From Azospirillum formosense (lineage in GTDB: Bacteria > Pseudomonadota > Alphaproteobacteria > Azospirillales > Azospirillaceae), in assembly GCF_040500525.1 (NCBI RefSeq), contig NZ_CP159403.1, positions 201,001 through 265,000 on the forward strand: 64,000 bases of DNA, given 5' to 3'. Of the stretch, positions 11,332 to 40,522 are shown in pieces. The notes beneath the pieces are model-generated. The model saw only the letters and a list, made by a program, of their open reading frames with translations. It was not told the DNA's origin and searched no databases. Within the stretch, counting starts at the first letter, position 1, and each line of letters begins with the position of its first letter. A program made the translations under genes and the position numbers.

Positions 11332-11371
11332 AACGGGCCGTTTCCCATCCGGGAAGCGGCCCGTTTCTTTT
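11332..11371 (+). terminator. Rho-independent terminator
   Basis: An AACGGGCCG..TTCCC stem pairs with GGGAA..CGGCCCGTT around a four-base loop, followed by TCTTTT. It lies 34 bp after the small exported protein. Confidence 0.85.
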
Positions 11372-26129: not shown

Positions 26130-26344
26130 AACGGTCGGCTCCGCGGTGGACGGGAGGGGCGGCCCACGGATGGCCCGGTCGGACGACCGCGCACGCCGCT
26201 GGACCGATCAACACACCAAATCCCGTCGCGGCGCAAGCCGGACGTTGAGCACCGTCACCGGTCGCGACATTTCCTCACAGGAGAGCGGTGGCCGCCGTCC
26301 TGTTCTCGGGACATGCGCCGTTCAGCGGGAACACCGCCTGACAA

Positions 26345-26731
26345 TCAGCCTTCCTTGGCGGGCTGGGCCGGAGGCAGGTCGAAGGGCGTGCTGACGAAGG
26401 GGTCGCCGCGGCCATGGCCGGCCCGGTCGTGACCTTTCTCGGTCGCCGCCTTGCGGTAGTAGCCGACGATGAACACGCGGACCGCGTTGGCCAGCGACAC
26501 GGCGTTGCCGCGCGACCGGCGGGACTGCGAATCCAGGCGGTCCTTGAGATCGCTGCACAGCTCGTCCACGGTCAGGTCTTCCCGGTGGCAGATGTCGTCC
26601 AGCGCTTCCCAGTAGGACGGCTCCAGCCGAAGCTGCGTCGGGTTGCCGAACAGCTTGACGGTGCGTGCCACCAGAGGGATGGCGTTCAGCGGCGATGGCG
26701 CGTTGGACGCCTGTGAATCCTGACCCGACAT
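26345..26731 (-). CDS. Ribbon-helix-helix domain protein (downstream paralogue)
   Basis: A protein of 128 residues. The centre (VKLFGNPTQLRLEPSYWEAL then ICHREDLTVDELCSDL.. SLANAVRVFIVGYYRKAA) fits the ~70-residue RHH_4 fold: a beta strand for operator contact and two helices. The C-terminal ~35 residues are Pro/Gly-rich and probably disordered. It is closely similar to the frameshifted RHH gene at 30287-30594, so paralogues flank the YcaO-TfuA-Crp genes. Likely DNA-binding. A longer start at 26779 is possible. Last gene of the minus-strand cluster, 105 bp after the Crp gene. Confidence 0.75.
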   Translation of the reverse strand: MSGQDSQASNAPSPLNAIPLVARTVKLFGNPTQLRLEPSYWEALDDICHREDLTVDELCSDLKDRLDSQSRRSRGNAVSLANAVRVFIVGYYRKAATEKGHDRAGHGRGDPFVSTPFDLPPAQPAKEG

Positions 26732-26836
26732 AGCCCTGTATTCCTTGACTGTCAGCCGTGTTTCATGTCGTTCAGCCAATATAGCGTGATTGAAAAAATT
26801 TGCGACGATAAAACTCGGCGGATGTGCGCGGTGGCC

Positions 26837-27547
26837 TTATGGCACGTCGCCCGACTCTCCTGCCATGTCCTTAAGCATGTATAGATTGGTGATGATGATA
26901 AAACCTTTGTTATAGGTAATCGCTCCGGCGCTGCGCAATGCACGCAGGCTTTTGTTCACCATCTCGCGTGTGACACCCAGCATCGACGCCAGCGCCTCCT
27001 GGGACACCGGCTGGTTGATGCGCAGCCCGGCGGGCGTCTTCTGCCCATAGGTGTCCGCCAGCAACAGGATGCGCCGGGCCAGCCGGCGCGGCACGTCGTG
27101 GAAAACCGCATCCTCGATGTTTTCCGACACCCAGCGCAACCGTTCGCACAGCACACCCATCATGCGGATGCACAGGGAAGGATGCCGTTCCAGGAAGGCG
27201 ATGAATTCCGGGCGGTCGATGCGGAACAGCTCCGCCGGGCGCAGCGCGGTGGCTCCGGCGGTGCGGTCCTTGCCGTCGATCAACGCGATTTCCCCCAGCA
27301 CGTCGCCGGGGTTCAGGATGTTGAGCAGCATCGTCTTGCCGTCCTCCGACGAGGTCGAGACGGCGATCTGCCCCTTCATGATGGCGTACAGGCAATCGCC
27401 GGGATCGCCCTTGCTGAACACGGTCTGGTTTTCGTGGAACCGCGAGACCCGGCCGAGCGCGACCAGCTCCTGCATCCGGTCGTCGTCGAGGATGCCAAAC
27501 ATTCGGTTGCGCCGCAGGATGCCGGCGACGTCCTTCAGTAAGGCCAT
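26837..27547 (-). CDS. Crp/Fnr-family transcriptional regulator
   Basis: A protein of 236 residues. The N-terminal cyclic-nucleotide-binding fold (~15-130) contains F-S-K-G-D-P-G-D-C and LGEIALIDGKDRTAGATAL. The C-terminal Crp-type winged helix has V-S-Q-E-A-L-A-S-M-L-G-V-T-R-E-M-V-N-K as recognition unit. The N-terminal Fnr cysteine cluster is absent, so it is not an iron-sulfur oxygen sensor. R-T-A-G-A-T corresponds to the phosphate-binding cassette, but the full Crp cAMP pattern (R-S-A-T) is not kept. It lies 56 bp after tfuA; a perfect Crp-type palindrome is found at the head of this cluster, making self-regulation likely. Confidence 0.9.
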   Translation of the reverse strand: MALLKDVAGILRRNRMFGILDDDRMQELVALGRVSRFHENQTVFSKGDPGDCLYAIMKGQIAVSTSSEDGKTMLLNILNPGDVLGEIALIDGKDRTAGATALRPAELFRIDRPEFIAFLERHPSLCIRMMGVLCERLRWVSENIEDAVFHDVPRRLARRILLLADTYGQKTPAGLRINQPVSQEALASMLGVTREMVNKSLRALRSAGAITYNKGFIIITNLYMLKDMAGESGDVP

Positions 27548-27603
27548 GGCGTTCGCGGTCCCGGTTGAGTGCCGTCGGACCGTTGATGGCACCCGGCGGA
27601 CGA

Positions 27604-28371
27604 TCAGTCCAGCGGATTCCCCATCCGGTCGTGCGCGCCGTCGCGCAGGGCGCGGTCCCACAGCGCGGTGTGCTCGAAATGGAAGCGCGCCTCGGGCGCC
27701 CGCCCGCCGTCCGACGCCCAGCGGCGCATGGTTCGGAGCAGGTCGAGCGCGTCCTCGCGCTTCTGGTCGCACCGCCCGTTGGGCAGCCAGTGGCGCAGGT
27801 CGGCGAGTTCCTCCTCCGGCAGGCCCTCGGCGGCGGCGAGGCGGAACACCCGGCCATAGCCGCGTTCGCGGTAGGGCAGGGCCTTGGCGATGGCCTCCAG
27901 CCGCCGCGCCGTGGCGGTGGGAACGATGCCCTCCTGCGCCGCGTCCGCCAGCGTGCGGCGGATGTTGACCATCGCTTCGGACAGGCTGGGATAGCCGAGT
28001 TCCGCCGGGCCGTGGATCACCGCCACCTCGTCGTCGTCCTCCAGCCGCCCGTCCCGGAAGGCTTCGAAGACGGCGCCGACACCGATCATCCCGAAGGGGT
28101 GCAGTTCCGCGGCGCGCAGGGCGCCCATGCTCGACGCTCCGAACACCGCCACGCCCTGCTGGATGGCGTGCAGGATCTCCTTGTGCCAGACGGACGGGAT
28201 GTTCTCGAAGTAGCCGTCGACGATGCCGATGGCCCGCGGCTTGCGCGCGCACAGCCGGATGATGTCGCCCTGGGCGACCGGCGGCAGATAGGTGGCGTCG
28301 AGGCGCCGGGCGGCCTCGGCGCGGGGCAGGGTGGGGCCGAGGAAGACGTAAAGGCCGTCCGACGTCTGCAT
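27604..28371 (-). CDS. TfuA-like protein
   Basis: A protein of 255 residues of the TfuA-like family (originally from the trifolitoxin cluster). Visible family features: LYVFLGPTLPRAEA at the start, DGYFENIPSVWHKEIL, FGASSMGALRAAEL and the acidic DDDEVAVIHGPAELGY. TfuA proteins partner YcaO enzymes, most clearly in backbone thioamidation (methyl-CoM reductase glycine in methanogens), where TfuA is thought to help deliver sulfur. It follows the YcaO gene after 49 bp. The start at 28371 has GGAG 7 bases upstream; the in-frame ATG at 28395 lacks one. Confidence 0.88.
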   Translation of the reverse strand: MQTSDGLYVFLGPTLPRAEAARRLDATYLPPVAQGDIIRLCARKPRAIGIVDGYFENIPSVWHKEILHAIQQGVAVFGASSMGALRAAELHPFGMIGVGAVFEAFRDGRLEDDDEVAVIHGPAELGYPSLSEAMVNIRRTLADAAQEGIVPTATARRLEAIAKALPYRERGYGRVFRLAAAEGLPEEELADLRHWLPNGRCDQKREDALDLLRTMRRWASDGGRAPEARFHFEHTALWDRALRDGAHDRMGNPLD

Positions 28372-28420
28372 GGGGGTCTCCGCCTTCGCTCTCATTGCAC
28401 TTTGTATTGTCCGGCCGGCT

Positions 28421-29683
28421 TCAGACGCCGGCCACGGCGCGCGCCCTTGCGCCCATCGCGTAGTCCGGCGAGGAGTCCAGCCCCTCCAGGCCGGGAATGA
28501 CCAGACGGACCACGGCGATGCCGAACTCCGGCTTGGTCAGGTCCACCGCCACCGCCTCCTCGATGCCGGCGGCGCGCAGCCGGTCGAGCTGGCAGGCCAG
28601 ATCCTCCTCGACGGTGGGGCCGGCGAGGCTGGGGATCGCGGCGAAGTCGCGGCACCCGACGCCCTCGGTGATCAGCGCCGTCCAGCGCGCGTGCTGCGCC
28701 GGGTCGAGGTGGCGTTCGTATTCGGAGCGGGGCATGTCGTCGCGGGCCCCGGCGATGAAGGTCAGCCGGCTCTGCGCCGCCTCGGTCAGGGCGCGGGACA
28801 GCGCGATCTCCGGCGCGGCGTGGCAGCCCATGCCCATGGCGGGGCGGACGCTGTGCTGCGGCGCGTCCTCCCGCGTCGCGATGCGGCAGAGGATGGCCGG
28901 CAGGCCGATGTCGCTGGTGATGTCCCACAGGCCGACCGCGACCCCCGCGTCGTCGAAGCGGTCGAGCAGCGAGCGGCAGACCGGATCGGCGACGCTGGCC
29001 GGATCGATCCGGGTGGCGGCCTGGGCCTCCGGAGAGGCGAGGCGCCACAGGGTGGCGGCGTCGCGCTCGACCAGTTCGGTCATGGCGTGCGCGGTCGCCT
29101 CGGCGAGGCTGTTGCCCGAGGCCAGCCCGTTCGACCCGGCGAGGAAGCAGCCGGACCCCGGCGGCATCGGCAGCGTGAAGTTCAGATGGACCGTCTCGAA
29201 GGGCACCCACGTCCGCCCGCCGCCCAGCAGATCGTCGCCCTCGATCCACAGCATCGGGGTGTGGGGGGTGAAGGCGCTGGTCGACAGCCGCGGCAGGCGG
29301 GCCACGTCAACCACCCGGTGGGTCCAGCGCAACTCGTCGTAGCTGGCGTATTTCAGGGGCAGGGTGATGCGTTCGGCGTGGTAGCTCTCGATCGACTCCA
29401 TGACGCCCGACGCCTTGGCGGCGGCCAGAGTCACGCCCTTGCCCTGGGCGACGGAGACGGAGCGCGCGTTCGGCCGGGTCACCATGACGACCGGGATGCC
29501 GACGCGGTCCAGCCCCGTGACGTTCGCCACCCGCGTGATGCCCATGACGGGAAGGAAGGGGGCGGCGCGGGCCAGAGTCTGCTCCGGCGTGGCGATCCGG
29601 TGGGTTCCGGTGGTGTGGACCTTCAGCGGCTGGTCGGACATGGCCGGGTCCCGGGCGATGCCGCGGACGAAATCGAGGGGCAT
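28421..29683 (-). CDS. YcaO-domain protein (TfuA-associated)
   Basis: A protein of 420 residues. The YcaO ATP-binding signatures are present: S-G-V-M-E96-S-I-E99-S-Y-H-A-E-R, and N185-G-L-A-S-G-N-S-L-A-E195-A-T-A-H-A-M-T-E-L-V-E-R-D. YcaO enzymes use ATP to activate peptide backbone amides, giving azolines, amidines or thioamides. The C-terminus lacks the P-x-P-x-P tail of azoline-forming members, and no cyclodehydratase partner (E1-like) or dehydrogenase is present. With TfuA adjacent, thioamidation is the best guess. Upstream lies a 64-residue peptide gene. Alternative start at 29641. Confidence 0.9.
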   Translation of the reverse strand: MPLDFVRGIARDPAMSDQPLKVHTTGTHRIATPEQTLARAAPFLPVMGITRVANVTGLDRVGIPVVMVTRPNARSVSVAQGKGVTLAAAKASGVMESIESYHAERITLPLKYASYDELRWTHRVVDVARLPRLSTSAFTPHTPMLWIEGDDLLGGGRTWVPFETVHLNFTLPMPPGSGCFLAGSNGLASGNSLAEATAHAMTELVERDAATLWRLASPEAQAATRIDPASVADPVCRSLLDRFDDAGVAVGLWDITSDIGLPAILCRIATREDAPQHSVRPAMGMGCHAAPEIALSRALTEAAQSRLTFIAGARDDMPRSEYERHLDPAQHARWTALITEGVGCRDFAAIPSLAGPTVEEDLACQLDRLRAAGIEEAVAVDLTKPEFGIAVVRLVIPGLEGLDSSPDYAMGARARAVAGV

Positions 29684-29822
29684 GGGGGTGGATCTCCGCC
29701 AGGGTGCGCCGCCACGGGATGCCCGTGGTGAAGCGGAAGGAACGCCGGCGAAGCAGGAGGGCCGGGCGGGGACCGTGGCAGGCCGGTCAGGATAACCACC
29801 GGCCGCCACGGCCCGAAGAACA

Positions 29823-29839
29823 GGCCCGACGGACGGGCC
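29823..29839 (-). terminator. Hairpin between peptide gene and YcaO gene
   Basis: GGCCCG and CGGGCC form a 6-bp stem with a 5-base loop, read on the minus strand just after the peptide stop and followed by TGTTCTTCGG. It is a weak terminator or processing hairpin, of the kind that allows a peptide gene to be expressed above its modification genes. Confidence 0.4.
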
Positions 29840-29858
29840 CAGGCGGTTTGCCCGCCGG

Positions 29859-30053
29859 TCAGAGGCCCGGGGTGATCGCGTGGCGGGCGGCCTCGTGGTC
29901 GTCGCTGTTGAAGGCGCGGCGGTCGCCGATGCGGGCGGTGGCGGTCAGCGCGGCGGCCGGCTCGGCAACCTCGGTCACGCCCTGGGCGGTCACGGCGAAG
30001 AGACGGCCGTCGGCACCACGGATGAGGGCGGTCTGGTCGATGATGGCGGTCAT
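29859..30053 (-). CDS. 64-residue peptide upstream of YcaO (possible substrate)
   Basis: MTAIIDQTALIRGADGRLFA.. ending DDHEAARHAITPGL. AGGAG precedes the ATG with good spacing. No signal peptide, no Cys, few aromatic residues. It is the first gene of the minus-strand cluster, 175 bp before the YcaO start with a hairpin between. Position, size and expression layout fit a ribosomally made precursor peptide, whose modified residue could be any backbone amide (two Gly in the first half, one near the C-terminus). It may equally be a small regulatory or housekeeping protein. Its reality as a gene is likely; its role as YcaO substrate is inference. Confidence 0.6.
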   Translation of the reverse strand: MTAIIDQTALIRGADGRLFAVTAQGVTEVAEPAAALTATARIGDRRAFNSDDHEAARHAITPGL

Positions 30054-30130
30054 GGGAACAGCTCCTGGGCGTGGGGTTTCGAGGAACCGCGGAATACTGC
30101 GGTATGTCGAAACCTTGGCCGCGATGACCC

Positions 30131-30162
30131 GTCCGGACTGTGAAGAACTTCACATGCCGGAC
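30131..30162. promoter_or_regulatory. Crp/Fnr-type operator within a 32-bp dyad
   Basis: TGTGA-AGAACT-TCACA at 30139-30154 is a perfect Crp-type palindrome (7-bp arms, 2-bp centre). It is framed by GTCCGG (30131-30136) and CCGGAC (30157-30162), so 13 of 15 positions in each arm are complementary. It lies 86 bp before the peptide start and 132 bp before the divergent RHH start. The cluster's own Crp/Fnr protein is the obvious candidate ligand. Confidence 0.7.
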
Positions 30163-30213
30163 GCCCCTTGCCTGGGTAAAAATCGCCTACACGCGCACAC
30201 ACGCATGTTCAGT

Positions 30214-30246
30214 CCCGGAAAAATTCCGGCGACCCGGGAAAAATTC
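30214..30246. promoter_or_regulatory. Direct repeats before the RHH gene
   Basis: CCCGGAAAAATTC (30214-30226) and CCGGGAAAAATTC (30234-30246) are near-identical 13-mers 20 bp apart, two helical turns. The first also forms a palindrome CCGGAA-AAA-TTCCGG. They end 40 bp before the RHH start, a good place for an autoregulatory RHH operator. Confidence 0.5.
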
Positions 30247-30286
30247 GCCAGGCCGAGAAGCGGCCAGCCGAGACAGGAGCGTACCG

Positions 30287-30594
30287 ATGAAGTTGGACCG
30301 CCGCATTCCCCGCAGCCTCGACGAGATGGCCGACCTCAGCTCGCTCGCGGCGCCGCCCGCCGTGGTGACGCGCTCGCTGACGATCGGGGGCGCCGCGCCA
30401 GCCTGCGGCTGGAGGCGACGATCTGGGACGGGCTGAAGGACATCGCCAAGTCCCAGGGCAAGTCGCTTGAGGCGCTGTGCGCCGACATCCACGACAGCCG
30501 GACGGAGGGCATTCCCTTCGCCACCAGCGTCCGGGTCTATGTGCTGAACCATTTCCGCAGCACCGCCGCAGGCACCACCACGCTCGTGGCCTGA
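30287..30594 (+). pseudogene. Ribbon-helix-helix protein, frameshifted
   Basis: The ATG at 30287 (with AGGAG upstream) opens MKLDRRIPRSLDEMADLSSL.. TRSLTIGG. After a G5 run near 30390 the homologous continuation (RRASLRLEATIWDGLKDIAK.. PFATSVRVYVLNHFRSTAA) is in the +1 frame and ends at 30594. Restoring one G gives a ~102-residue RHH_4 protein matching the paralogue at 26345-26731 (LRLE..W..L; then ..VRV..). The break may be a real mutation, phase variation in a G-run, or a sequencing error. It starts the plus-strand side of the YcaO-TfuA promoter region. Confidence 0.7.
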
Positions 30595-30647
30595 CGCTCC
30601 GCCGGGGCGTTACCGGATCGGGTCAAGCTGCCTCACGTCAAGCTGCC

Positions 30648-33600
30648 TCACGTCACCGGGCTGGACGCCGCGAGGCAGCGGCGGAAGGCCCGGCAGCGGT
30701 CGGCGAGCGGCAACATGGACAGCTGGCGGCTCATCGTCTCGGCAGCCGCCAGATGCTCCATGGCCTCGCGATGCTGGCCGACGGCGGTGAAGGCCTGGGC
30801 CAGGGCGAAGTGCGACCAGCCCTGCTCGGACAGCTGGCCGGCGTCCGTCGCGATGCCCAGCGCCTGGGCGGCGCAGCCGATCGCGGTCTCGTGCTGCGCC
30901 GTTTCCAGGGCGAGATCGGACATCCAGTTCAGAATGCGCGGCCTGGGCAGCGAGTGATTCAGGATGTGCGCCTGCTCCAGGCTGGCGTTGAGCAGCCGCG
31001 CGCCCTCCGCGGCACCGCCGGTGCGGGCGATGGCGTAGCCCAGCGCGCCCAGCGTGATCGGCTGGAAGATGTGCAGGCGCGTCGCCTCGGTGATTGTGAT
31101 GGCGTCCTTCAACAGCGGCAGCGCTTCGGCGAAGCGCTCGCCGATGATGTGGACCAGCGCCAGATGGACCTTCACCGACGACACGGAGAAGGCGTGCCCG
31201 ACCTCCTCCGCGATGTCGAGCGCGTGGAGCATCACCCGGACGGCCTCGTCGTCGCGCCCCAGCTCGGCGAGGCAGCGGCCCTGGTAGGCGGCGGTGATCG
31301 CGACCGCCACCGCGGTCAGGCCGAACCGCGCGCGGGGAGCGTGAGCCAACGCCAAACTGCGCGCCTGCTCCAGCTTCTCCTGGGCCTCCGGGAAATAACC
31401 CTTGTCCACCAGCATGCCACCCAGACGCATCAGCCCCTGGATGCGCAGCTCCATCGTCCCCCGGTTGCCCAGATGCTCGAGCGCGCTGCGGCTGAGCGCG
31501 ATGGCCCCGTCGAGCACGCCGTAGACCCATTGGAAGGACGCCTTGAGCGAGGTCGCGCGGGCGTAGCGGATGCGGTCGCCGATGCCCAGCGCCATGTCCC
31601 GCGCCTCCTCCAGCGGGTCGCCGGCCAGCTGGCGCCCCTGCGGCAGCAGGACGAGGGGAATGTTGATCCACAGGTCGATCCGCCGCTGGGTGTTGCGACG
31701 GGTGTCCGGCAGATGGTCCAGCGCCTTCAGCGCCTGCTCGTAGAAGCGTCCGGCGTCGAAATGCTTGCAGCGCATTTCCGCGCGGCGCCCGGCCCGGCGG
31801 CCGTAGGCGCAGGCGAGCGGCCAATCCTCGGCGTAGAAGGCGTGATGGGCGATCAGCTCCGCCCGGTTCGGCAGGTTGCGGTCGGATCGCCGCCGCAAGG
31901 CGTGCAGGACCCGCCCGTGCAGCGGCTGGCGTTCCCGCTTGGTCAGGGTGGCGTAGGCGACCTCCTGGACCAGCGCGTGACGGAAGGTCAGTTCCAGGTT
32001 CGGCAGCAGGCGGGAGCGCGCGAAGAAGCCGCTCTGCTCCAGCCGGGCGAGGGCCGCCGGGAGGTCGGCGGCGGGAATGGGGGACACCGCGCGCAGCAGG
32101 CCCAGATCGACCGAGGTGCCGATCACCGCGGCGTGCATCAGGACCCGCCGCGGGTCGGGTTCGAGAGCGTCGATCCGCGAGGCCAGCAAGCCGTGCACCG
32201 TGGCCGGCAGGACCATCCGGGCGTCGGTCTTGCCCAGCCGGTAGCGTCCCGGACTGCCGACGATGACCCCGGTGGTCTCCAGCGTGCGCAGCGATTCCTC
32301 CAGATAGAGCGGCACGCCCTGGCTCTGCGTCGCCACGCGCGCCTTCAGGTCGGCCAGCGACGGGCTGTGGCCGAGCCAATGGTCGAGGAACTCGTCGGCC
32401 TGCAGCGGCTCCAGCGGTTCGAGCGTGATGGCGCGGACGGAGTCCGGCGCGGACCAGCCGCCGGGCGCGTCGGGCCGCGAAGTGACCAGGACGAAGACCC
32501 GGGCGTCCTCCGTCCCTTCGGCCAGGGCATCCAGCAACCGGTTGGTCAGCCCGCGCGTCCAGTGCGCGTCCTCGACGAGGATCAGCAGCGGGCGCTCCAT
32601 GGACAGCTCGCGGATCGCCGCGACCAGCCCCTCGACGCTGAAATCGGCTTTCTGGGCGGGATCGAGCCCCTGCCACAGCGGATGGACGGAGGGCTGGCCG
32701 AGCAGCTCCCGCATCGCCTCGCCGGCCAACTCGCCGCCGTTGCGCGCGGCGGCGGCGGTCAGGCGCGCCACCGCCGAGCCCTCCTTCAGCATGCCTTCCG
32801 CCGGGCCGTCCGCCGCTCCGCAGACCGAGAGGGCAAGGCAGCGGGCCGCCGCCTCCAGGTCGTCGGGGTCGCCCAGGCGGCGAATCGGGAACTGCGGCCA
32901 GATGGTTGTGGTGAAGGCCGCCGCCTCCGGGCTGCGCATCAGCTCTCCGGTCAGCCGGGATTTGCCGATGCCGGCCTCCCCGATCAGGATCGCGCAGGCG
33001 CCGCGGCCCTGTTCGGCCTGTCGCAGCGCGCCGGTCAGCACCGCCAGCTCCGGCTGGCGCCCGACGAACAGGGTGCCTTCGGCGGACAGCAGGTCCATCG
33101 CCGTGCGCCGCATCGCCCGCGCCGCCTCCAGCGCGAAGGCGGTCACCGGCTCCGCCGCGGCGGAGAGGCGCAGCGTGCCCGCCGGGCGGACGGTCAGGCC
33201 CGTGGGCACGAGATCCAGCGTCTCGCGGCTCAGCAGCACGCTGTTGGGGTGCGCCCGCTGCTGCAGCTTGGCCGCGACATGCACGGTCTCGCCCACCGTG
33301 CGGTAGTCGGTCCACACGCCCGTCTCGATGATCTGGGCCACCACCTCGCCCGAGCTGATGCCGATCCGCATCTTGAACTCGTCCGAATCGATGGCCGAGC
33401 GGGCGATGTCCTGCGCGGCGAGGCAGGCGCGCAACGCGTGGTCCTCCAGCGCCGAGGGGGCGCCGAACACCGCCATGATGCCGTCGCCCAGCACCTGGGC
33501 CACCGTGCCGCCGTAGCGCTCCACCGCGTCGGTCAGGACCTGCAGGATGGTGAGAAGGGTCTGGTCGGCCTCTTCCGGGTCGCGGCCCGACACCATGCTC

Positions 33601-33794
33601 GAGGATTCGACGATGTCGGCGAACAGGACGGTGACGACCTTGCGTTCCGCGCTGTTGCGCCGGGCCGCCCCGCCATCCGGCGCTTCGGCCGGGCGGGCGG
33701 CGCCGGCTGCGGGCATGGGGCCGCAGGACGCCTCCCGAGGCGCCGCCATGGGCATCGGTTGCGGTCCGCCCAAGTCCATGTCCGTTCCGGCCAT
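30648..33794 (-). CDS. Adenylate/guanylate cyclase domain - AAA ATPase - TPR regulator
   Basis: About 1048 residues. Class III cyclase domain near the N-terminus (VVTVLFADIVESS; metal Asp in FADI and in VLGDGIMAVFG; later RIGISSGEVVAQ). A STAND/AAA-type ATPase follows with Walker A G-E-A-G-I-G-K-S and Walker B LLILVEDAH. The C-terminal ~450 residues are tetratricopeptide-like helices (LARLEQSGFFARSR.. HALVQEVAYATLTKRE). This architecture is common in Rhizobiales and Azospirillum; whether it makes cyclic nucleotide is not settled by sequence. The start at 33794 has a G-rich site upstream; in-frame ATGs exist up to 33860. Confidence 0.85.
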   Translation of the reverse strand: MAGTDMDLGGPQPMPMAAPREASCGPMPAAGAARPAEAPDGGAARRNSAERKVVTVLFADIVESSSMVSGRDPEEADQTLLTILQVLTDAVERYGGTVAQVLGDGIMAVFGAPSALEDHALRACLAAQDIARSAIDSDEFKMRIGISSGEVVAQIIETGVWTDYRTVGETVHVAAKLQQRAHPNSVLLSRETLDLVPTGLTVRPAGTLRLSAAAEPVTAFALEAARAMRRTAMDLLSAEGTLFVGRQPELAVLTGALRQAEQGRGACAILIGEAGIGKSRLTGELMRSPEAAAFTTTIWPQFPIRRLGDPDDLEAAARCLALSVCGAADGPAEGMLKEGSAVARLTAAAARNGGELAGEAMRELLGQPSVHPLWQGLDPAQKADFSVEGLVAAIRELSMERPLLILVEDAHWTRGLTNRLLDALAEGTEDARVFVLVTSRPDAPGGWSAPDSVRAITLEPLEPLQADEFLDHWLGHSPSLADLKARVATQSQGVPLYLEESLRTLETTGVIVGSPGRYRLGKTDARMVLPATVHGLLASRIDALEPDPRRVLMHAAVIGTSVDLGLLRAVSPIPAADLPAALARLEQSGFFARSRLLPNLELTFRHALVQEVAYATLTKRERQPLHGRVLHALRRRSDRNLPNRAELIAHHAFYAEDWPLACAYGRRAGRRAEMRCKHFDAGRFYEQALKALDHLPDTRRNTQRRIDLWINIPLVLLPQGRQLAGDPLEEARDMALGIGDRIRYARATSLKASFQWVYGVLDGAIALSRSALEHLGNRGTMELRIQGLMRLGGMLVDKGYFPEAQEKLEQARSLALAHAPRARFGLTAVAVAITAAYQGRCLAELGRDDEAVRVMLHALDIAEEVGHAFSVSSVKVHLALVHIIGERFAEALPLLKDAITITEATRLHIFQPITLGALGYAIARTGGAAEGARLLNASLEQAHILNHSLPRPRILNWMSDLALETAQHETAIGCAAQALGIATDAGQLSEQGWSHFALAQAFTAVGQHREAMEHLAAAETMSRQLSMLPLADRCRAFRRCLAASSPVT

Positions 33795-40488: not shown

Positions 40489-40522
40489 AAAAGCCCCGCC
40501 GGAGCGATCCGGTGGGGCTTTT
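40489..40522. terminator. Bidirectional rho-independent terminator
   Basis: An AAAAGCCCCGCCGGA / TCCGGTGGGGCTTTT stem with a GCGA loop and one G-T wobble. A and T runs flank both arms. It separates the AraC gene from convergent acnB. Confidence 0.88.

Follow-up and report, generated by a model that had tools for sequence, protein, structure and literature searches.

Rhodospirillum centenum provides the closest described system. In the part of the published account that was available, its CgrA is a Crp homologue using cGMP, and footprint, ChIP-seq and RNA-seq data cover the counterpart of the Azospirillum site described below (PMC4681086). The footprint protected a TGTGA-N6-TCACA palindrome (TGTGAAGCAGTTCACA) upstream of RC1_3785-gcyB-gcyC-cgrA; both the binding of CgrA to this site and activation on its two sides were shown, with RC1_3784 and RC1_3785 activated 12- and 18-fold and to a larger extent elsewhere in the same paper, and the operon thus activated contains the CgrA gene itself (PMC4681086). 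In the same source 295 ChIP sites are given for CgrA, gcyB and gcyC are described as hypothetical, putative or non-catalytic cyclase subunits, and its main text yielded no match for gcyA. According to a transcriptome study, in the portion of the source at hand, A. brasilense has in its genome a CgrA homologue as well as genes for making cGMP, whose role in cysts had yet to be established (PMC6159551). Among the literature matches listed, PMC4681086 was the only one dealing with gcyB and gcyC of R. centenum, and none joined the control of cysts by cGMP and CgrA with YcaO-TfuA modification.

One genome of the family (G076, locus L249) was taken as R. centenum because it holds the TGTGAAGCAGTTCACA site, the R. 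centenum gene order and a further 16-mer of the table in PMC4681086, found in a single occurrence. The product of gcyB in this locus is a YcaO protein (Pfam E 1.9e-89), that of gcyC a TfuA protein (Pfam E 5.2e-47) and that of the divergent ORF an RHH_4 protein (Pfam E 2.7e-21). The reading of gcyB and gcyC as YcaO and TfuA, of the first gene as RiPP-like and of the divergent gene as RHH_4 looks new.

The order of the CgrA locus, divergent RHH-site-small ORF-gcyB-gcyC-crp, was also found in the window, i.e., the whole stretch of Azospirillum DNA that was analyzed (64,000 nucleotides), around a dyad without assigned strand at 30131-30162 that sits between two divergent transcription units. To its left, on the minus strand, lie the genes of a precursor-like peptide of 64 aa (29859-30053), YcaO (28421-29683; PF02624, E 3.5e-84; counterpart of gcyB), TfuA (27604-28395; PF07812, E 1.5e-48; counterpart of gcyC), a Crp/Fnr-family regulator (26837-27547; PF00027 and PF13545) with 57% identity to the R. 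centenum protein, and, as the last of the run, the RHH_4 protein RhhA (26345-26779, start codon uncertain; PF13467, E 8.2e-13). The crp gene is thus the fourth of the peptide-ycaO-tfuA-crp run, in agreement with the earlier note, which had placed it four genes downstream; the 86 bp given there to the peptide gene are the bases from the start of the core to the start codon at 30053 on the minus strand, the edge of the dyad being 78 bases from that codon. On the right side, the plus-strand gene rhhB (30287-30594; PF13467 over 30397-30594, E 6.4e-13) also encodes an RHH_4 protein, and beyond it a cyclase gene follows on the minus strand. rhhB is split into two frames in the window as compared to a single 102-aa frame in 12 out of 12 close relatives (L034-L045), the cause being either a genuine lesion or an error in sequencing. 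Repeats like CCGGAAAAATTC lie on the rhhB side of the dyad, ahead of that gene (about 30214-30250); they are seen in the A. brasilense-like group and are possibly an operator of an RHH protein. We consider it very probable that this dyad serves as operator for the Crp-family protein encoded in the cluster itself, which is the counterpart in Azospirillum of the cGMP receptor CgrA.

The dyad reads GTCCGGACTGTGAAGAACTTCACATGCCGGAC, with 13 of 16 positions paired, and has an exact TGTGA-N6-TCACA core of the CRP operator type at 30139-30154 (TGTGAAGAACTTCACA). This core was the sole TGTGAA-N4-TTCACA in the 6.1 Mb genome. TGTGAANNNNTTCACA occurred once in the window, where 0.00 occurrences were expected from 100 dinucleotide shuffles of the window, and once genome-wide. 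The TGTGA-N6-TCACA pattern was present at four places in the genome vs. none for the reversed control pattern; when one mismatch was allowed, the figures rose to 31 and 5 places, respectively. The perfect core announced in the earlier note is where it had been placed and, judging from the shuffles and the control pattern, is not due to chance, and the suggested search for other copies in the genome revealed a site that is not scattered. The logo of 56 distinct contexts gave 1.4 to 2.0 bits for the half-sites, about 1.5 bits for the inner A and T (site positions 6 and 11) and less than 0.8 bits for every base outside the 16-mer; the half-site values arise partly by construction, as rows were picked by that pattern, which applies less to positions 6 and 11 and to the place of the site. 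The logo did not include truncated clusters (L072, L100) or crp-less loci (L091-L099, L101), and its base counts were restricted to rows with at most one mismatch.

The extended arms that the earlier note had added to the core did not hold up. Conservation of the outer arms GTCCGG/CCGGAC was confined to the A. brasilense-like group and, in part, its nearest neighbours, and three other 32-mers of the window paired equally well or better, at 40490 (14 pairs) and at 11333 and 8053 (13 pairs each). The 16-bp core is the significant part of the dyad; there is nothing unusual in its length of 32 bp by itself, and the arms were discarded as a signal for being unconserved past close relatives and not rare in the window. 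In one Azospirillum relative (L076, about 1801-1840 as oriented), both outermost site bases are lost (AGTGAAGTTCTTCACT) and the site lies within a 40-bp palindrome of 19 pairs around a 2-nt centre. Pairing of this kind, together with the 13 of 16 pairs over 32 bp in the window, is what an RNA or DNA hairpin acting as terminator or attenuator, instead of a protein site, would present. Across relatives it is the sequence of the core that is conserved and not the pairing of the arms, which vary by lineage; moreover, the terminator scan of 26200-30700 was negative at the dyad, so that a terminator there was rejected, and, by the -10 elements described below, both predicted starts fall downstream of the dyad. 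We find a hairpin barely credible for these reasons.

Linkage of the site to the crp gene of the cluster was followed in three sets of loci, which overlap (the named loci L168-L188 partly repeat genomes of L034-L090) and are not to be summed. Within the family, 62 of 82 genomes carried TfuA, and the divergent spacer contained an exact TGTGA-N6-TCACA in 47 of the 57 evaluable crp-cluster loci (56 relatives plus the window); eight of the others presented one mismatch and one presented two, at the same place, and L075 lacked the site, its one-mismatch match falling in the ycaO region and not being counted. The exact site was absent from all ten family YcaO-TfuA loci without a crp match (L091-L099, L101). 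The stricter TGTGAA-N4-TTCACA appeared anywhere in the genome in 54 of the 59 family genomes that carry the cluster vs. 2 of the 23 that lack it, and in seven of the 54 (G017, G018, G031, G033, G034, G037, and G068) the strict copy was located outside the cluster spacer. Class-wide, where 24 of 385 genomes had TfuA, the exact site was present in the three loci with crp after tfuA and in none of the 14 others (17 loci read, leaving out G342, G418, the second G118 locus and the three weakest matches). In the named set (the best 80 of 545 loci), 19 of the 21 loci with crp directly after tfuA displayed the exact upstream site and the other two were off by one base; for TfuA loci of other kinds the figure was 2 of 59, corresponding to L196, with a divergent crp in the locus, and L245, with the site far downstream. 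Seven of these 59 had a Crp-family match elsewhere in the locus (L192, L196, L202, L206, L218, L230, and L233), and only L196 had the exact site; with six of seven lacking it, not every Crp near YcaO-TfuA goes with the motif. The check suggested in the earlier note, whether the site travels with the cluster in relatives, thus had a positive outcome in the family, class and named-locus counts, specifically for its crp gene. In a TfuA tree of 83 rows, 22 of the 24 crp-bearing rows fell in one clade (support 87/93), L254 and L256 being on long unplaced branches. The linkage counts are consequently not independent events, and the association of crp and site reflects, in essence, a single ancient linkage that has persisted, not many independent gains. 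Several Azospirillum genomes (L094-L098) also possess a second YcaO-TfuA pair, 43-51% identical to that of the window, without Crp or site.

The recognition helix of the Crp in the window, TREMVNK, is of the Crp type (RE-x-VNK). All 59 cluster Crp proteins that were aligned have a (S/T)RE-x-(V/I)NK helix; of three proteins at a greater distance, two (L150 and L157) retain the motif and L151 has Arg for Lys. The closest solved structures were those of the 3d0s group of Crp/Fnr regulators, also with RE-x-VNK, which we take to include the CRP of M. tuberculosis and GlxR. M. tuberculosis CRP and GlxR read TGTGA-N6-TCACA. The genome contained 20 HTH_Crp_2 matches (14 over the cut-off and 11 with E below 1e-10), and among these 20 loci the cluster Crp was the best match to CgrA, with 57% vs. 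43% identity for the next. This second Crp (L124), whose helix SRESINK is similar, could share the site and, together with the three further exact TGTGA-N6-TCACA places in the genome, leads to the alternative that the site serves such a paralogue in a general Crp regulon and that the cluster crp acts elsewhere. We judge it improbable, since the site follows the cluster crp and was not found in crp-less loci of the family (0 of 10) or the class (0 of 14) and was rare in the other named loci (2 of 59), and since it is the linked Crp itself that was footprinted in R. centenum, as far as the available text of PMC4681086 goes.

Further copies of the site were associated with genes of the RHH_4 family. 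From 29 off-cluster strict copies listed, 20 were fetched (L102-L121), and an RHH_4 gene was adjacent to 17 of them, with L118-L120 as exceptions. In the genome of the window, a second exact site (TGTGAAGTTCATCACA; L032 2014-2029, G000 C2:1258513-1258528) precedes another RHH_4 gene by less than 100 bp, and no RHH_4 match was obtained at the other two exact genome sites (L031, L033). In six Azospirillum loci (L103, L106, L109, L110, L113, and L117), the second strict site is placed between an RHH_4 gene and a small conserved ORF of the M-T-R-x-(D/E)-A-L-R-A-I type, for which no Pfam family was found. Because RHH_4 genes stand beside further sites, the cluster Crp seems, from gene neighbourhoods, to serve both the peptide operon and RHH_4 genes; the number of exact sites is small here in comparison with the 295 ChIP sites of CgrA, and the regulon may thus differ. 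The recurrence of RHH_4 genes beside the site, in the cluster as well as at those second copies, would also suit an operator by which an RHH_4 protein (RhhA or RhhB) controls its own gene. That reading is very improbable: L150, L151, and L157 hold site and crp and no match to the RHH proteins of the window was found in them, the half-sites fit the recognition helix of Crp, and the counterpart site was footprinted by CgrA in what was accessible of PMC4681086.

The flank statistics are counted from the core edges, L075 (no site) being left out and rows more than 80% alike being thinned from 79 to 47 (peptide side) and 44 (rhhB side) representatives. The promoter geometry was fixed on both sides. 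A predicted -10 element of the peptide operon promoter, AAGGTT, lies at 30111-30116 on the minus strand and that of the divergent rhhB promoter, TAAAAA, at 30177-30182 on the plus strand, both of them at 23-28 nt when counted from the edge of the core. Of the 47 peptide-side representatives, 39 have A at offset 24 and 40 have T at offset 28; TA starting at offset 22 or 23 is seen in 38 of the 44 rhhB-side representatives, against a mean of 1.5 per offset. The elements are imperfect, as no more than 16 of 47 representatives have TA starting at 23 on the peptide side and T occupies offset 28 in 19 of 44 on the rhhB side; in the R. centenum locus (L079), the rhhB-side element is TATGAT at 23-28. 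If these motifs, which stand about 23-28 nt away on either side, are read as -10 elements, the centre of the palindrome falls near -42 of both predicted starts. Class II CRP sites are centred near -41.5. One dimer near -42 of two divergent promoters would therefore have, from the spacing of the predicted elements, the geometry of class II CRP activation. The scan of 26200-30700 detected no consensus sigma-70 promoter with -35 and -10 boxes, and an ordinary promoter of this type was rejected; the result fits activator-dependent promoters, although in a GC-rich genome this is weak evidence.

The peptide encoded by the first gene of the run contains a leader motif, RGADGRLF, and a putative core, DDHEAARHAITPG. 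An ORF with the RG[AP]DGxL[YF] leader was found downstream of the site in 72 of 80 rows (overlapping sets). No ORF following this leader rule was found in L039, L046, L047, L075, L080, L151, and L177, L151 having a repeat ORF, and L157 presents a variant leader ORF on the other strand. Azospirillum peptides have a single core of the form D-x-E-A-(G/A)-R---TPG, and repeated cores occur in L168 (the locus of L150), L169, L174, and L151. Repeated cores are the usual look of multi-core RiPP precursors. Judging from its translation, the first gene has the appearance of a RiPP precursor gene, and two features of thioamidated RiPP clusters, adjacent YcaO and TfuA and a precursor with conserved leader and core, are found in the locus. 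The nearest NCBIfam models of YcaO and TfuA were those of McrA thioamidation, and the two proteins scored under the cut-offs of the McrA-glycine thioamidation pair (242.2 vs. 365 bits for TIGR03266 and 219.1 vs. 235.2 bits for NF033432). In Azospirillum, YcaO and TfuA would probably modify the peptide.

The cyclase gene beyond rhhB (30648-33794, minus strand) encodes a protein of 1048 aa combining a class III nucleotide cyclase (PF00211, E 3.1e-18) with AAA_16 (PF13191) and TPR (PF13424) parts. A cyclase of this type lies just upstream of the cluster in 19 of the 21 named crp loci, the exceptions being L171, cut by the contig end, and L177, without cyclase. In whole-genome counts, a cyclase was located within 7 kb of tfuA in four of five crp genomes vs. 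0.15 expected, and in 5 of the 13 YcaO-TfuA loci read that lack crp after tfuA (G118 C13, G342, and G418 left out) vs. 0.49 expected (P 7e-5); the 7 kb limit was set post hoc, and cyclase positions are those among the matches listed, with misses as upper bounds. In the catalytic motif, all eight aligned cyclases have Gln for Lys, and His or Tyr for Asn. Class III cyclases usually carry Lys and Asn at these positions, so that cyclase activity is not assured. Genes for cyclase-AAA-TPR proteins adjoin YcaO-TfuA also outside the group with crp after tfuA, in Gammaproteobacteria, Burkholderiales, Microvirga and Chloroflexi records (L198, L202, L245, L192, and L206), and L192, L202, and L206 have in addition a Crp-family match in the locus. 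In the Chloroflexi loci (L192, L206), the cyclase and the Crp-family gene lie near YcaO-TfuA in other arrangements and without the exact site.

Under the preferred reading, in which the dyad is the operator of the cluster's Crp, a liganded Crp dimer is predicted to bind TGTGAAGAACTTCACA and, centred near -42 of each start, would act as class II activator of both divergent promoters, which it could do because both -10 elements stand at about 23-28 nt from the palindrome. The leftward target would be the operon of precursor peptide, YcaO, TfuA, Crp and RHH_4, and the rightward one the RHH_4 gene rhhB; as crp is inside the operon, the loop would be positive. The cluster Crp has a cyclic-nucleotide domain and the cyclase gene is adjacent; the ligand is probably a cyclic nucleotide, perhaps cGMP by analogy with R. 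centenum, and its likely source is the cyclase-AAA-TPR protein encoded next door. The regulatory loop proposed in the earlier note is thus supported by the linkage of site and crp, the Crp-type helix and, in R. centenum, the footprint of the same operator in the same gene order, and it is largely known already in that relative. That note had not mentioned the divergent RHH_4 gene as a target, the cyclase next to the cluster or a connection with cGMP and cysts.

A further and more tentative idea, which we regard as possible and rather unlikely, is that the peptide matured by YcaO and TfuA is itself the signal sensed by the neighbouring cyclase-AAA-TPR protein. TPR peptide receptors of Firmicutes follow a comparable logic. 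If it were true, TPR-type receptor, cyclic nucleotide, Crp and precursor operon would form a peptide autoinduction circuit in Gram-negative bacteria, and the tie of gcyB and gcyC to cGMP production in cyst development would be explained though they encode no cyclase; the cyclases near 5 of 13 crp-less YcaO-TfuA loci suggest that peptide and cyclase may be the older pair. If the operator reading is right, a single symmetric operator governs a modified-peptide pathway that forms part of a second-messenger loop in bacterial development. This would join the control of cyst formation by cGMP and CgrA with YcaO-TfuA peptide modification, and the role of gcyB, gcyC and the small ORF RC1_3785 would become a testable question.

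Compared with the CgrA operator of R. centenum, the locus shares the 16-bp operator type, the divergent arrangement and the gene order, with Crp proteins 57% identical, whereas the central bases of the site and the precursor sequence differ; moreover, Azospirillum has an extra RHH_4 gene after crp, for which no match was found after crp in L249. With the class II promoters of E. coli CRP it has in common the TGTGA-N6-TCACA pattern, a helix with RE plus a basic residue and a predicted site near -42, as deduced from the position of the -10-like element; in contrast, one symmetric site appears here to serve two divergent promoters, and exact genome sites are few. The window cyclase matched the TIGR03903 TOMM kinase/cyclase fusion over residues 33-910 (E 6.5e-82), but with 276 bits it stayed below the curated cut-off of 705.75, and the match begins at profile position 268, leaving the earlier part unmatched; a cyclase linked to YcaO-type systems is, given this match, not a new idea. 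Thioamidated RiPP clusters, as described in the consulted part of PMC8120280, likewise contain adjacent ycaO and tfuA and a short precursor-like gene, but the present locus differs from them in its own Crp regulator, its RHH_4 genes and its cyclase neighbour, as well as in the RG[AP]DGxL[YF] leader and the single or repeated D-AGR-TPG-like cores, the thioamide being only putative here. The operator is therefore of a known type, with a counterpart already footprinted, and what looks new is that, next to an almost constantly present cyclase gene, the genes under its control form a YcaO-TfuA peptide pathway within a cGMP-Crp circuit.
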